Shown in pieces: positions 15,883 through 20,072 of a DNA stretch of 20,072 nucleotides. This DNA is from a virus. The notes under the pieces are model-generated. The model was not told the origin of the DNA. It searched no databases and saw nothing but the letters and a program-made list of their open reading frames with translations. Positions within the stretch are counted from its first letter, which is position 1, and the number at the start of each line of letters is the position of its first letter. The position numbers and the translations under genes are program-made. The stretch lies in the IMG/VR virus record IMGVR_UViG_3300005664_000141, positions 1 to 20,072 of that record; one strand, 5' to 3'.

Positions 15883-16434
15883 CTAAAATGGTATCTCATC
15901 CCTTCCTATCGGCTTTAGCTTTGGCGCATCATCCGTGATGCCTCGGATTGCCTCGTTGCTTTGATTGTAAAGCACGCTCATGCGCTCTAAAGCTGCCGCT
16001 GCCTGCCCCAGGCTAAACGTGATCGGCGCATCAACTGGATTGCTGGCAACATGCTGGGCTGATTCCAAATCCGTTGCACAAAAGACATAATAAACCCCGC
16101 CTGGGCTTCTGACCTTCCGGCATTTTGCGCTATCTGGCACATACCCATTTTTGGTAGCTGACGCATCCATAGCACGCCAGCCCTTAATGCAGTTGTCCAC
16201 GTTCGTTGCTGTGGCGTCGTAGTCGTCGGCCTTAATGGCTTCGTCTAGCTTATCAAGCGCCCGCATAAACTTGCCGGCAAGTGTGGCATCAGCCAGTTGC
16301 CAAATTACATCAGTCCCCCATTTGGCCTCAATCTCATACGCCACCGCGTCCAGCCTGTAGACCAAAGCATCCAAAGGCGACAACGGCTTAGAAACAGTCC
16401 GTGAAACAATCTTACGCTTGTTGCCCTTTTGCAT
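15883..16434 (-). CDS. Unknown protein ending in an SSB-like C-terminal tip
   Basis: A 183-residue protein that I do not recognise. The N-terminus is basic (MQKGNKRKIVSRTVSK). The next part is helical (LDALVYRLDAVAYEIEAKWG, then LAGKFMRALDKLDEAIKADD). A compact region follows at about 95-120 with KCRKVRSPGGVYYVFCATDL. The last residues, GRDEIPF, closely match the D-D-I-P-F tip by which bacterial SSB recruits repair and replication partners. I chose ATG 16434 because GGAGGG (16442-16447) sits 7 bases upstream; a TTG 15 bases earlier overlaps that site. It follows the PrimPol-helicase after a structured 166-base segment. A role in DNA replication, by docking on SSB-binding proteins, is inference from the tip and the neighbours. 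Confidence 0.75.
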   Translation of the reverse strand: MQKGNKRKIVSRTVSKPLSPLDALVYRLDAVAYEIEAKWGTDVIWQLADATLAGKFMRALDKLDEAIKADDYDATATNVDNCIKGWRAMDASATKNGYVPDSAKCRKVRSPGGVYYVFCATDLESAQHVASNPVDAPITFSLGQAAAALERMSVLYNQSNEAIRGITDDAPKLKPIGRDEIPF

Positions 16435-16464
16435 GATTTTACCCTCCAAAAATAATCCGCCAAA

Positions 16465-16534
16465 CTACCCCTTGACAATTCCCCAATTCATGGGGTAGCG
16501 TCCGAGACGCTCCCCCTGATGAATTGGGATGAAT
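16465..16534. repeat. Nested inverted repeats in the gap after the PrimPol-helicase
   Basis: CCCAATTCAT (16482-16491) pairs perfectly with ATGAATTGGG (16519-16528). Inside, GGGG plus AGCGTC (16492-16502, one bulged T) pairs with GACGCT plus CCCC (16506-16515) around a CGA loop, leaving only CTG unpaired on one side. This makes a 47-base hairpin with about 20 base pairs. CTACCCC (16465-16471) can instead pair with GGGGTAG (16492-16498), so two folds compete. GATGAATT is also repeated partially at 16528-16535. No T-run follows on either strand, so it is not an ordinary terminator. It lies 35 bases before the ribosome-binding site of the 183-residue gene. Possible roles are a replication origin, an RNA leader, or an acquired REP/MITE-like palindrome. 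Confidence 0.75.
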
Positions 16535-16604
16535 TTATTGCGGAACGAGACGAAAAAAGCAGCGTCCTTCCAGCATCCCAAGCCAAGCATGAAACAAATT
16601 TCAC
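16488..16604 (-). CDS. Possible 38-residue ORF overlapping the PrimPol-helicase stop
   Basis: A 38-codon frame starts with GTG 16604 in a GTGA overlap with the PrimPol-helicase stop, with AAGGGG about 7 bases upstream, the same arrangement as real genes in this window. It begins MKFVSCLAWDAGRTLLFSS and ends inside the palindrome. The peptide has no known domain, and its 3' half is dictated by the hairpin sequence, so it may be accidental. Confidence 0.2.
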   Translation of the reverse strand: MKFVSCLAWDAGRTLLFSSRSAINSSQFIRGSVSDATP

Positions 16605-18634
16605 TCCCCAACCCCTTCAGGTTTAACAACAATCCAGACAACATCGCCTTCAATGGCGACATAGCCTTCATTGCGCAGCCGGCCTGCCACCTGTCCAAAG
16701 AGCGTGGCATTTTTGCCCGCATCGCCCAGACTTAGCCGCCGCTCAAAGCAAACATCTTTCCACAAATCCAGCTTCGTTGCTGGGCAGCCGTACCGTGTTA
16801 ATGGCTGTCTGGCGACTGCCTCATAGAGGCATTGCATGGCTTGGTAATCGCGGCCATTTAACCTTTTTTGGTTATTCGGCAAATTGTCCAGCCGTTTCAG
16901 TATCAGGCTATCCTCGCCAAAGCCGGTGTTAATTTTAACCATTTCAAACGCCATATCTTCGATTGGTTCAGCGTCCTTCTGTTCTTCCATTTTAACGATT
17001 AGATTGTTGTCCGTGCGCTTAACCAGGATGCAGGTATCCAGCCCGGCCAGCATGGCGCTACTGCCTCTCATGCCGCGTTCTTCGTCCTTGCCGGTATGGT
17101 GTACGCCAATGACTGCCGCGCCTGTGGCGTCCTTAATCAGGTCGCAACCAGCTATGAATTCACCAATGTCTGTGGCGCTGTTTTCATCCCCGCCCAGCAA
17201 TGCCCTGGCCACTGTGTCAATGATGATCAGGCTAAAATCTGACTTAATGGCGCTGATGGCCTTAAGTATCTCGGCCACATCCTCCGGCGCACGCATGTTA
17301 ACCCGCGTCACAAGCCCATAGAACGCTATTTCAGATTCCGGCTGGTTATGTGCCTTCCACGCCTTTAACCGCTTCCCAAGCCCGCCCAAGCCCTCCCCGA
17401 CGATATAAAGCACGTTGCCCCGCCTGACTTCGTGGCCATGCCACGGCAAGCCAGACGCAACGCAAAGCGCCATGTCCAGGGCGACGAAGCTTTTGCCCTT
17501 TTTCGGTGCGCCATAAATGATTCCGAATGACTTTTCAGGGAATACCCTATCAATGACCCAATTGGGCGGCTTTCGGCTGATGATGTTGTCAAAATCAACA
17601 AGGCTATACTTACTCGGCTTTTCTGGCGCTGGCTGCGCTGCCTCAATAATCTCGCCCGTTTCTGGGTCAAATGATTCGCCTGTTGCGGCAGCTTGTGGCG
17701 CTGTCCTGCCCTCTGCCGCCAGCTTGGCCGCCTTATAAGCTTCAATCTCTTGCTGGCTTGCCTCTCTGAAAGGCTCTGCCATGCCCTTAGCAAGCCCGCT
17801 GGCGATGGTTGCCATCGTCTCGCTACTCGGCAGCCCTGCCGCCAGTCCTGCCGCGTGTAGCGCGTTTATAGCGTCATTCTGGGCTAAGAAAACCGGAACA
17901 CAATGGCCAATCCTTAACGCGCTAATGTTAAGTTGATTATTTCGGCTGCCTTCGCCTGCGCCTCTGACGGCATCCAGGCATTCGGCTATCATCTTTTCTA
18001 CCCAGCGCCGTGAAACAATGCCGCCACTCGCGCTAAAGTTGTGCGCTATTGTTGGCATTTTGGCCAAGCTGTCCGGTTTTTCCGGTTTACTGGTCACAAA
18101 CTCAATCAGCCATTGCGGCGCTTGAGCCAGTGGCGTCTGGGACGGCCTGACCAGCCATTCATAGGGCAAGCCTGTGTCGGGGTGTAGGCTTGGCGCTAGG
18201 ACTACATAGCCGCCATTGCCGCGTGTTTCCAGCCCGCCTGCTTTGCCGCCTGGGGGTGCTGTGTGCTTAATCAGCTTGCCGGTGTTGCGTATTTCCACGC
18301 TGTCCGGCCAAGCCCAGAAATAATGCCTGCCATTGGCGGTTTTCTGCACTGGTGTTATTGGCAGTTCGCCATGTTTGGCAATGAGGGCTTCCAGGTCTTG
18401 CCGGCCATCTTCGCCGTCAACGTCCAGAATCCAACAGCCGGAATGCTGGCCAGCGGCTAAGCCAATATTGCAGTCCGGCTGGTTATCCCACCACTCGGAA
18501 ATCTTGATTAGTTCCTTGCTGGCGTCCTTGCAGCCATGTGCGGTCGCAGGAACCTTGCTGCGTGGCGCTAATGGGAAAACTGCCCAGCCAAGTACGGCGG
18601 CGTAATTAAGCGCAGTTTTCCCGTTGTTCGACAT
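16601..18634 (-). CDS. PrimPol-type primase fused to RepA/RecA-like helicase
   Basis: A 677-residue replication protein. Residues 1-165 are a bifunctional primase-polymerase (prim-pol) domain: ILDVDGEDG (69-77) supplies the metal-binding Asp pair, NGRHYFW (101-107) the conserved His, and GLETRGNGGYVVLAPS (134-149) the final motif. A linker of about 180 residues is partly Ala/Glu-rich. The C-terminal ATPase (about 345-585) has Walker A GAPKKGKS (375-382), Walker B SLIIIDTVA (468-476) and VIGVHHTGKDEERGMRGSSA (508-527), as in RepA/AAA_25 helicases. Residues 595-668 look like a winged helix. It should prime and unwind DNA at the phage fork. The start ATG 18634 has AGG 9 bases upstream. Confidence 0.92.
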   Translation of the reverse strand: MSNNGKTALNYAAVLGWAVFPLAPRSKVPATAHGCKDASKELIKISEWWDNQPDCNIGLAAGQHSGCWILDVDGEDGRQDLEALIAKHGELPITPVQKTANGRHYFWAWPDSVEIRNTGKLIKHTAPPGGKAGGLETRGNGGYVVLAPSLHPDTGLPYEWLVRPSQTPLAQAPQWLIEFVTSKPEKPDSLAKMPTIAHNFSASGGIVSRRWVEKMIAECLDAVRGAGEGSRNNQLNISALRIGHCVPVFLAQNDAINALHAAGLAAGLPSSETMATIASGLAKGMAEPFREASQQEIEAYKAAKLAAEGRTAPQAAATGESFDPETGEIIEAAQPAPEKPSKYSLVDFDNIISRKPPNWVIDRVFPEKSFGIIYGAPKKGKSFVALDMALCVASGLPWHGHEVRRGNVLYIVGEGLGGLGKRLKAWKAHNQPESEIAFYGLVTRVNMRAPEDVAEILKAISAIKSDFSLIIIDTVARALLGGDENSATDIGEFIAGCDLIKDATGAAVIGVHHTGKDEERGMRGSSAMLAGLDTCILVKRTDNNLIVKMEEQKDAEPIEDMAFEMVKINTGFGEDSLILKRLDNLPNNQKRLNGRDYQAMQCLYEAVARQPLTRYGCPATKLDLWKDVCFERRLSLGDAGKNATLFGQVAGRLRNEGYVAIEGDVVWIVVKPEGVGE

Positions 18635-18664
18635 GCGGTTTTGCCTGCTCGGTCTTGTTTGGGT

Positions 18665-18693
18665 AAAAAGGGGATAGCCTTTCAGCTATCCCC
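18665..18693 (-). terminator. Rho-independent terminator
   Basis: GGGGATAGC (18670-18678) and GCTATCCCC (18685-18693) form a perfect 9-base-pair stem with a six-base loop. In the direction of transcription it is followed by five T residues (18669-18665), the standard intrinsic-terminator layout. It starts 9 bases after the stop of the ssDNA-binding gene and lies 30 bases before the PrimPol-helicase start, so it should lower helicase expression relative to the upstream genes. Confidence 0.8.
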
Positions 18694-18701
18694 GCTCTTG
18701 G

Positions 18702-19307
18702 TTAGAACGCAATATCATCGTCCAATGCTGCGCTTGCCGTTTCTGCCGCTTTGGCAGCCTCGGCAATCTTCGCCTGCATTTCGTCAGGCCGGTCAACCCA
18801 AGCTGTGATTGACCACACCGGCACGCGGTAAGTCTTTGCGCCTTCTTTGGTCTGGCTTTCGATCTTCTTAACGCTCTTAATTTCTACCACCGGCAGCTTG
18901 CCAGCGTGCTTGGCCTTGTCGGCAAGGTAAGCATCATGCAGGGTATTCATTTCGGCAATAACGCATTTGGCGGTATGACTGAAAGCCGCTAGGCCAATTT
19001 GCTTGCCATAGACCTGCACCCGAAAGCCAAGCTTGTGTTCTGGCGATGGTTGCGCTGGCTTTGGCTGGCCGAGTTTCGCCATCTTGAAATCAACCCCGCC
19101 GGCAATGCGCACCCAGCCTTGCTCGGCGCTATCGAAGTCAAAGATAAGCTTTAACGGCAGTGCAACATCATCTTCCGACTTGTCCCAGCTTCCCTTATCG
19201 TTCTTCACGCTGCGCCTGATAGCCGCAACTCCGGCTGTTGCGCTCCACTTGAAAACCGGCAGAAAGTCACCGGCTGCGCTGCTGTCTGTATTGATGTCAA
19301 AAGCCAT
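18702..19307 (-). CDS. Putative ssDNA-binding protein with SSB-like tail
   Basis: A 201-residue protein likely to coat single-stranded DNA. The body (about 10-172) is beta-rich with several exposed aromatics (GDFLPVFKWSATAG, QGWVRIAGGVDFKM, YRVPVWSITAWVDRPDE), consistent with an OB-like fold. Residues 175-195 are an Ala/Glu/Lys helix or linker, and the chain ends LDDDIAF, close to the D-D-I-P-F tip of bacterial SSB. Neighbours agree: a RecE-like nuclease upstream and a PrimPol-helicase downstream. I chose ATG 19307 because AGGA lies about 6 bases upstream; an in-frame TTG at 19352 would add 15 residues without a good site. An alternative is a single-strand annealing protein. No RecT or Erf motif is visible. 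Confidence 0.7.
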   Translation of the reverse strand: MAFDINTDSSAAGDFLPVFKWSATAGVAAIRRSVKNDKGSWDKSEDDVALPLKLIFDFDSAEQGWVRIAGGVDFKMAKLGQPKPAQPSPEHKLGFRVQVYGKQIGLAAFSHTAKCVIAEMNTLHDAYLADKAKHAGKLPVVEIKSVKKIESQTKEGAKTYRVPVWSITAWVDRPDEMQAKIAEAAKAAETASAALDDDIAF

Positions 19308-19358: not shown

Positions 19359-20072
19359 CTATTCTGGCATCACCAGAATGTCGTCCGGGCTTGTTGCCCT
19401 GAATCCGTAAGCCGGCAGCGCCAGCGGCGTTATGCCGCTTGGATAGCCGCGCCAGATGTTATCCCGCTTGCATTCTGCGTAGGTCTTAAGCGCCGCCCGA
19501 TACATGTTATAACCCTCAAGCTTTGCATTGGTATCCAGCGCATAAACCGCGCTTGCATATGGCGCTGATTTTTCAACTGCAATAAAGATAAAATCTTCAA
19601 AGTGGTAATCGTAATTAATGTACCCGTCCCGATACATCGCCTCTTGAATGTGATAGCCATAAGCCAGCACGGATTTAGCAAACATTCTTGCGCTGGCATC
19701 CAGCGTGGTCTTGAGGTCAACCATTAGATTTTTATCATGATTGATTAAGTCAGGCCGTGCCTTGCACTTAACGCCGGTTTCGCGGTCTTGCCAAAAGACG
19801 GATTCTTCGCGTGTAGTTTTTCCCTTTAGTAGTTCGGCAATGTCGTGGTTCTTTGCTATGGCGTCACGCGCTCTAAGCAATTCGTCATATTCGTCTGCCA
19901 CCATTAGCAATGCCTTGGCCGCTGCTGCCTCGGCTTGCGCATCTTTCCATTTATTACCGCGCCGATCATCAGGGCCGCGCACAACCGATGCTTCAAGCTT
20001 TTCTGGCTCAAGCACGGCAATATGAAATGCCGCGCCGAAGTCCATTGCCGGCGTTGCCGACTTGCTGCGATT
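19359..20072 (-). CDS. RecE-like PD-(D/E)XK exonuclease, 5' end outside window
   Basis: The frame is open to the right edge. An ATG at 20045 exists, but nine sense codons (NRSKSATPA) precede it, and together they read NRSKSATPAMDFGAAFH, the conserved early segment of this family, so the real start is beyond 20072. Counting from that Met, RPD (97-99), VDLKTT (109-114, the D-x-K of the nuclease core) and YHIQEAMYRDGY (131-142, with the Q-x-x-x-Y motif) are all intact. The family (exodeoxyribonuclease VIII / DUF3799-type) degrades one DNA strand to expose ssDNA for annealing. It lies next to a putative ssDNA-binding protein, 51 bases away. Likely part of phage recombination or concatemer processing. 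Confidence 0.88.
   Translation of the reverse strand, partial: NRSKSATPAMDFGAAFHIAVLEPEKLEASVVRGPDDRRGNKWKDAQAEAAAAKALLMVADEYDELLRARDAIAKNHDIAELLKGKTTREESVFWQDRETGVKCKARPDLINHDKNLMVDLKTTLDASARMFAKSVLAYGYHIQEAMYRDGYINYDYHFEDFIFIAVEKSAPYASAVYALDTNAKLEGYNMYRAALKTYAECKRDNIWRGYPSGITPLALPAYGFRATSPDDILVMPE

Follow-up and report, generated by a model that had tools for sequence, protein, structure and literature searches.

A conserved SSB-type C-terminal tip on an undescribed phage protein, placed nearly reciprocally with the tail of the phage single-stranded DNA-binding protein

Gene organisation of the locus

The window, meaning the whole stretch of viral DNA analysed here, comprises 20,072 nt of the IMG/VR record IMGVR_UViG_3300005664_000141 (positions 1 to 20,072). 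Its minus strand carries, in this order, genes for an exonuclease, a protein here called P1, a PrimPol-helicase, a second protein called P2, a small open reading frame (ORF) and the large subunit of terminase. The features on which the analysis turns are the following.

19359..20045, minus strand: exonuclease (DUF3799, PD-(D/E)XK; PHROG 412, exonuclease VIII), in the same module as P1 and P2
18702..19307, minus strand: P1, 201 aa, a probable phage single-stranded DNA-binding protein (SSB) with a predicted OB-like barrel and an acidic tail ending in Phe
18705..18725, minus strand: codons of the P1 tail LDDDIAF, in which the penultimate Pro is absent
16601..18634, minus strand: PrimPol-helicase, between the P1 and P2 genes (Pfam Prim-Pol 2.6e-42, AAA_25 1.7e-44)
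15883..16434, minus strand: P2, 183 aa, member of an undescribed phage family, predicted as a three-helix bundle with a small alpha/beta part and a disordered tail
15886..15903, minus strand: codons for RDEIPF, the SSB-Ct-type tip at the C-terminus of P2

A preliminary description of this DNA had drawn attention to the ends LDDDIAF and GRDEIPF on the two proteins that flank the PrimPol-helicase, and both read as it gave them, on the minus strand. Neither of these two proteins has a significant match in Pfam or PHROG (best E 0.012 and 0.046).

Sampling of the two protein families

With P1 as the query, the relatives retrieved were in three viral contigs and a single phage record, MW202711, and P2 alone retrieved nothing from phage records or viral contigs. 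The way into the P2 family led through genes that follow the helicase in the relatives of P1; in two of these loci (L003 and L005) such a gene encodes a protein with 30% and 24% identity to P2, ending in QDDIPF and SDPIPF, respectively. Profile scans yielded 31 viral loci, with certain contigs recurring, and 22 loci in genome contigs that are mostly alphaproteobacterial by title. One viral scan counted 434 P2 relatives, of which 80 were kept. Extra sets were seeded with tipless P2, with an SSB of the Enc34 type and with another P2 clade. Background ORFs of at least 100 aa were taken from the same loci by a greedy non-overlapping choice and do not represent annotated genes.

P1, a probable phage SSB

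The C-terminus of P1 reads ...AALDDDIAF. Across its family the tail is acidic with a near-invariant terminal Phe (F201 in P1) and the consensus ...DDxEF, in which there is no Pro; a tip with Pro occurs in one of 64 unique P1-type proteins, and P1 itself lacks the penultimate Pro of the motif. In E. coli, both the terminal Phe and the free carboxylate of the SSB C-terminal peptide (SSB-Ct) are bound and needed, and a Pro-to-Ser change in this peptide raises the KD for RecG from 3.1 to 23 uM (PMC10164576). Given this effect of losing the Pro, the tail of P1 should be a poor SSB-Ct.

The AlphaFold2 model of P1 (60 sequences, mean pLDDT 73) is a nearly all-beta, OB-like barrel with two helices and a disordered end. 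Its best structural match is 9teh_I (Z 7.8, rmsd 4.8, 146 residues aligned; Foldseek E 3e-3), a fusion of integrase with the phiC31 recombination directionality factor, which we take to be phiC31 gp3. This factor directs an integrase and is only 10% identical to P1, and the Z of 7.8 lies below the level that the tool regards as safe. The next matches are the mitochondrial SSB Rim1 (Z 4.1), OB folds (Z 2-4) and chains of DNA polymerase epsilon (Z 2.4-3.4), and the presence of the polymerase chains in this list means that the assignment of an OB fold is not firm. In view of the similarity to 9teh, one may ask whether the phiC31 directionality factor descends from an SSB-like protein of a phage.

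None of the 60 P1-type proteins in the alignment (A7) matches a Pfam family at E <= 0.01, including PF10991 and SBB_T7. PHROG 9528, labelled 'nucleotidyltransferase', matches seven of the same 60 proteins (best 5.8e-8); the label looks misleading and was not credited.

In roseophage CRP-821, the gene between the nuclease and the primase/helicase is annotated as encoding an ssDNA-binding protein, and its product has a match to PF10991 (Enc34_ssDNA-bd) with E 2e-6; the profile of these Enc34-type SSBs in turn matches 1je5, a 'helix-destabilizing protein', at 5e-8, presumably T7 gp2.5. Because the CRP-821 slot holds an Enc34-type SSB, P1 can be read as a phage SSB of another sequence family. It resembles Enc34 ORF6 and T7 gp2.5 (PF10991, SBB_T7) in occupying the same gene slot in related phages, in its acidic tail and, tentatively, in its OB-like model, but differs from them in lacking the Pfam match and in its tail, since the Pro tip is present on 61 of the 70 unique SSBs of the Enc34 type in this set. 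With an acidic C-terminal tail and a place between exonuclease and primase-helicase, P1 has the tail and gene slot of a phage SSB and is probably one.

P2, an undescribed family with a conserved SSB-Ct

P2 ends in ...PIGRDEIPF, that is, in acidic residues followed by Ile-Pro-Phe at the free C-terminus. This is the motif of the SSB-Ct, with acidic residues and a hydrophobic-Pro-aromatic triplet at the extreme end. The first sample contained 117 unique complete P2 proteins. Of these, 101 end in [IVLMC]P[FWY]; the last position is F or W in 105, the penultimate one P in 102 and the fifth from the end D in 94. The bodies of the relatives are 14-31% identical to that of the window protein. Among background ORFs from the same loci such an end was found in 0 of 1096, and in 1 of 2422 in a larger set, where none of the 2422 has such an end preceded directly by an acidic or amide residue. 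The tip of P2 is thus conserved far beyond chance, and its conservation across the family rules out a chance origin. Across 102 P2 genes with a tip, all four Pro codons (41/24/23/14) and all three Ile codons are in use, a synonymous spread showing that the peptide is conserved while the DNA drifts. In one P2 clade (L363-L367, L375 and L377) the linker preceding the tip has been replaced or lengthened and the tip persists, for example as ...DWERGDDIPF. Two further relatives (L064 and L378) have a shifted tip-like motif, GDAIPF in the case of L064, and beyond it a C-terminal extension.

The final set holds 241 unique complete P2 proteins, of which 157 are tipped, four have a shifted motif and 80 are without a tip, the last count being too high for the family at large, as tipless P2 and tipped SSBs served as seeds for some of the scans. 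The idea that both flanking proteins end in SSB-like tips thus holds strictly for P2 and only loosely for P1. The comparison of C-termini across homologues that had been proposed gives the same division, with the tip kept in the larger part of the P2 family and a P1 tail without Pro. The finding that was to count against the idea, homologues with the same body and no conserved tip, does not apply to the larger part of the P2 family; tipless P2 relatives do exist, mostly in company with a tipped SSB.

The body of P2 is not that of an SSB. Its AlphaFold2 model (94 sequences, mean pLDDT 77.8) has a confident three-helix bundle at residues 20-95 (block means 89-98); after it come a beta-hairpin/alpha/beta part of lower confidence and a tail without order. 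With three helices rather than an OB fold in the N-terminal half, judged by the secondary structure of the model, and no match to an SSB family among 94 members, P2 was rejected as an SSB; structure prediction, put forward earlier as a check for OB folds, thus yields a helical bundle for P2 and an OB-like model at pLDDT 73 for P1. Searches of the P2 fold against the PDB, in which the alpha/beta part was barely covered, gave no prominent match: the best Foldseek hit had an E of 0.19, and VIA reached Z 7.8 with helical bundles. In BFVD there are 13 P2-like folds at E <= 0.001, all uncharacterised or nameless except for one 'terminase small subunit'. A role as small terminase is unlikely: in CRP-821 another gene is annotated as the small terminase, and the steady distance between P2 and SSB genes also speaks against the label.

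Searches of 94 P2 members against Pfam, PHROG and NCBIfam gave no convincing match; the weak ones comprise three members that match phrog_7246, which has no function assigned (lowest E 6e-4), and isolated hits with E of 0.006-0.01. The possibility that P2 is a housekeeping gene of the host was also rejected. A draw of 385 genomes from a single class, with up to eight first-look candidates per genome scored, gave matches in three of the 384 genomes besides the centre, one of them by a short fragment only, and by this rarity within one class P2 looks phage-borne; a second draw, as far as it was listed, comprised the same genomes around a different centre. On these sequence comparisons it is an undescribed family of phages and prophages. 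In the literature covered, which included few subscription papers, no description of a phage protein other than an SSB with a tip of the SSB kind was recognised. The earlier suggestion that the 183-residue protein could be an undescribed replication accessory was right in substance.

Among known systems, P2 is like bacterial SSB (DDDIPF) in presenting acidic residues and Ile-Pro-Phe at a free C-terminus after a disordered stretch, but its tip sits on a predicted helical and alpha/beta protein instead of an OB-fold SSB. Deinococcus DdrB differs from P2 in binding ssDNA itself, and its motif is reported to be unnecessary for radioresistance; we know of no reciprocal partner for DdrB. The phage Orf/NinB proteins (lambda Orf and YbcN) are, like P2, phage accessory proteins working with SSB; YbcN requires the SSB tail for SSB binding, whereas P2 carries such a tail itself (PMC4118853).

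Linkage of P2 to the SSB and helicase genes

Where a unique P2 locus has 5 kb or more of sequence upstream, an SSB of the P1 or Enc34 type is encoded as well in 96 of 97 cases. The median distance from SSB to P2 is 2660 bases over 165 loci, approximately one helicase gene, and the order of the two is reversed in one locus (L109). Where a helicase was recognised, P2 starts within 530 bases downstream of it in 41 of 46 loci and at 0.9-1.6 kb in the other five. Conversely, among the loci from the scan with Enc34-type SSB, P2 is present in 30 of 32 with at least 3.5 kb downstream, and in the two without it (L296 and L297) the SSB ends in DDEIPF. With the requirement set at 2.5 kb or more, P2 is present in 33 of 40 loci; all seven lacking it have a tipped SSB, and short downstream sequence may explain some of these absences.

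Reciprocal placement of the tip

In 160 unique pairs of SSB and P2, a strict terminal tip is found on exactly one of the partners in 145, on both in one and on neither in 14, so that the canonical tip sits on either the SSB or P2 in 145 of 160 pairs. P1-type SSBs without a tip are accompanied by a tipped P2 in 96 pairs, by a P2 with a shifted motif in three and by a tipless P2 in six, and the single P1-type SSB with a tip (L051, a 120-aa fragment at a contig edge ending in DDDLPF) stands beside a tipless P2. Tipped Enc34-type SSBs are accompanied by a tipless P2 in 45 pairs and by a tipped one in one pair (L137). Enc34-type SSBs without a strict tip occur with a tipped P2 in three pairs (L039, which ends in NDAPF, L290 and L291), with a shifted tip and a tipless P2 in four, and with no tip and a tipless P2 in one (L285). 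The reciprocity is visible within both SSB families, through L039, L290 and L291 in the Enc34 type and L051 in the P1 type. The 14 pairs scored as neither include four SSB tips followed by trailing residues (e.g. DDEIPWIMEWR), three shifted P2 motifs and two near misses (DDEIPDFF and DDPIGF), and in the remaining five (L034, L055, L353, L385 and L285) there is no tip on SSB or P2.

Beside tipped Enc34-type SSBs the altered P2 tails commonly read ...DDFDFLSDGVIE, in which the Pro is gone and the Phe is no longer terminal; ends such as ...EDDFDFLSDGVIE and ...DDIDFGVIE have the same acidic position, a changed Pro and an extended end. The commonest altered tails thus hit both key residues of the SSB-Ct, the Pro and the terminal Phe. 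Further ends beside tipped Enc34-type SSBs are EGLFQHD (CRP-821) and DDLPL (L279).

Three individual loci deserve mention. L137, where alone the SSB (DYDEIPF) and its P2 (YEDDIPF) each have a complete tip, may be an intermediate state. The Enc34-type SSB ORF at L039:3423-4427, which ends in NDAPF and is paired with a tipped P2, has an extra N-terminal stretch of ~120 residues, perhaps because the ORF is over-long. In MW202711 the primase/helicase (L005:3987-6287) ends in ...GETFDDIPFD, with the motif one residue before the terminus, and its P2 ends in DPIPF.

The preliminary description had also considered that one of the flanking proteins mimics the tail of the other. The two tails are unlike, and the pairing of tipless P2 mostly with tipped SSB looks instead like complementation or exchange of a single tail between two proteins. 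This suggests that phages can move a docking tail from one protein to another.

Strength of the reciprocity

Fisher's test over the 160 pairs gives 2e-26, but the pairs share ancestry and this value mostly counts one clade many times; within the Enc34 type the value is 0.008 and within the P1 type 0.09. A careful tree of 74 representatives of the 160 pairs, in which the window P2 forms a long branch, contains three changes of SSB tip, two of SSB family and 11 of P2 tip. In three independent pairs differing in the SSB tip, P2 differs in the opposite direction in 2.2 on average, in the same direction in 0.0 and not at all in 0.8, which is not significant. In eight independent pairs differing in the P2 tip on this tree, the SSB differs in the opposite direction in 2.1 and shows no difference in 5.9, meaning that the tip of P2 has often been lost without a change in the SSB. 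An earlier quick tree, in which shifted SSB tips were counted as absent, gave for three pairs 0.5 opposite, 0.1 same and 2.4 without difference. With approximately three SSB tip switches, the evolutionary test is underpowered on both trees. Gain of a tip by the SSB tends to accompany its loss from P2, a tendency that rests on few events.

Proposed role of P2 and alternative explanations

A conserved SSB-type tip beside replication genes makes recruitment of host SSB partners the leading reading. This had been proposed before on the strength of two similar tips; what argues for it is the conserved tip of P2 in its genomic setting, not a likeness of two tails. P2 would then be an accessory of a replication/recombination module consisting of exonuclease, SSB, PrimPol-helicase and P2 itself. 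Its folded body would stay at phage forks or at other replication or recombination intermediates, and its disordered C-terminus, by its motif, would offer a canonical SSB-Ct peptide to host SSB-docking proteins. Such docking proteins include the polymerase III chi subunit, PriA, DnaG and RecO. P1 lacks a Pro-Phe tip and keeps a gp2.5-like acidic tail ending in Phe, and the host docking role of an SSB tail would be supplied in trans by P2; in relatives with a Pro-tipped SSB, the tip of P2 is altered or lost in all pairs but one. P2 stands beside two unlike SSB families, and a direct contact between P2 and the SSB is thus not obvious. Two related complete phages, MW202711 and CRP-821, have no annotated DNA polymerase, and subgroups of CRP-822-type phages without a DNA polymerase likely depend on host replication, according to one study (PMC12629253). 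For such phages, recruiting parts of host polymerase III would be useful. We rate it as slightly more likely than not that P2 provides, in trans, the tip that the phage SSB lacks and thereby recruits host SSB-binding proteins.

The same tip could instead bind a phage partner, either the PrimPol-helicase or the DNA-binding face of the phage SSB, much as the gp2.5 tail acts in T7, where it is implicated in contacts with the T7 polymerase and primase-helicase according to a paper on the Enc34 SSB (PMC5686142). The closeness of P2 to the helicase gene, no more than 530 bases in most loci where a helicase was recognised, would suit such a contact. Ile-Pro-Phe, however, is the docking signature of the host SSB-Ct (PMC10164576), and a tail of the gp2.5 type is already present on P1; we regard a phage partner as unlikely. 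Free P2 might also be a decoy whose SSB-Ct competes with that of host SSB and thereby blocks nucleases or recombination mediators harmful to phage DNA. A tip on a small protein without an informative family match would be expected to compete for the same pockets, and the several losses of the P2 tip without any change in the SSB are what an optional function might show. Yet a decoy need not disappear when the SSB bears the tip, and the close linkage to SSB and helicase genes together with the near-exclusive placement of the tip fit complementation better, which leaves the decoy quite improbable.

A further explanation accepts the tip of P2 as real and functional and takes its reciprocity with the SSB as a lineage effect of few events without functional meaning. 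The tree speaks for it to the extent that there are only three independent SSB switches, without significance, and that most losses of the P2 tip have no matching SSB difference; four loci (L034, L055, L353 and L385) with no tip on either protein point the same way. Against this, on the careful tree the direction was opposite whenever both proteins differed (same way 0.0), and the pattern is seen within both SSB families. We consider a mere lineage effect rather unlikely, and supply of the missing tip in trans by P2 remains the preferred reading.

A more general form of that reading is that the SSB-Ct is a movable part, of which the replisomes of this phage group need one, carried either on the SSB or in trans on the unrelated adaptor P2. 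This we put forward tentatively, as a serious possibility that falls short of even likelihood.

Implications

The tails of SSBs are regarded as a built-in part of the SSB. If the proposed role is correct, P2 turns a tipless phage SSB into a hub for host enzymes, and the coating of ssDNA and the docking of host enzymes would be separable and swappable functions in a widespread phage family. Speculatively, splitting ssDNA binding from docking may time the recruitment of host enzymes, or may let the SSB escape defences triggered by phage SSBs; a phage SSB reportedly activates AbpAB, going by the title of one paper. For an unnamed family with 434 relatives in a single viral scan, a hypothesis of function would have been gained.
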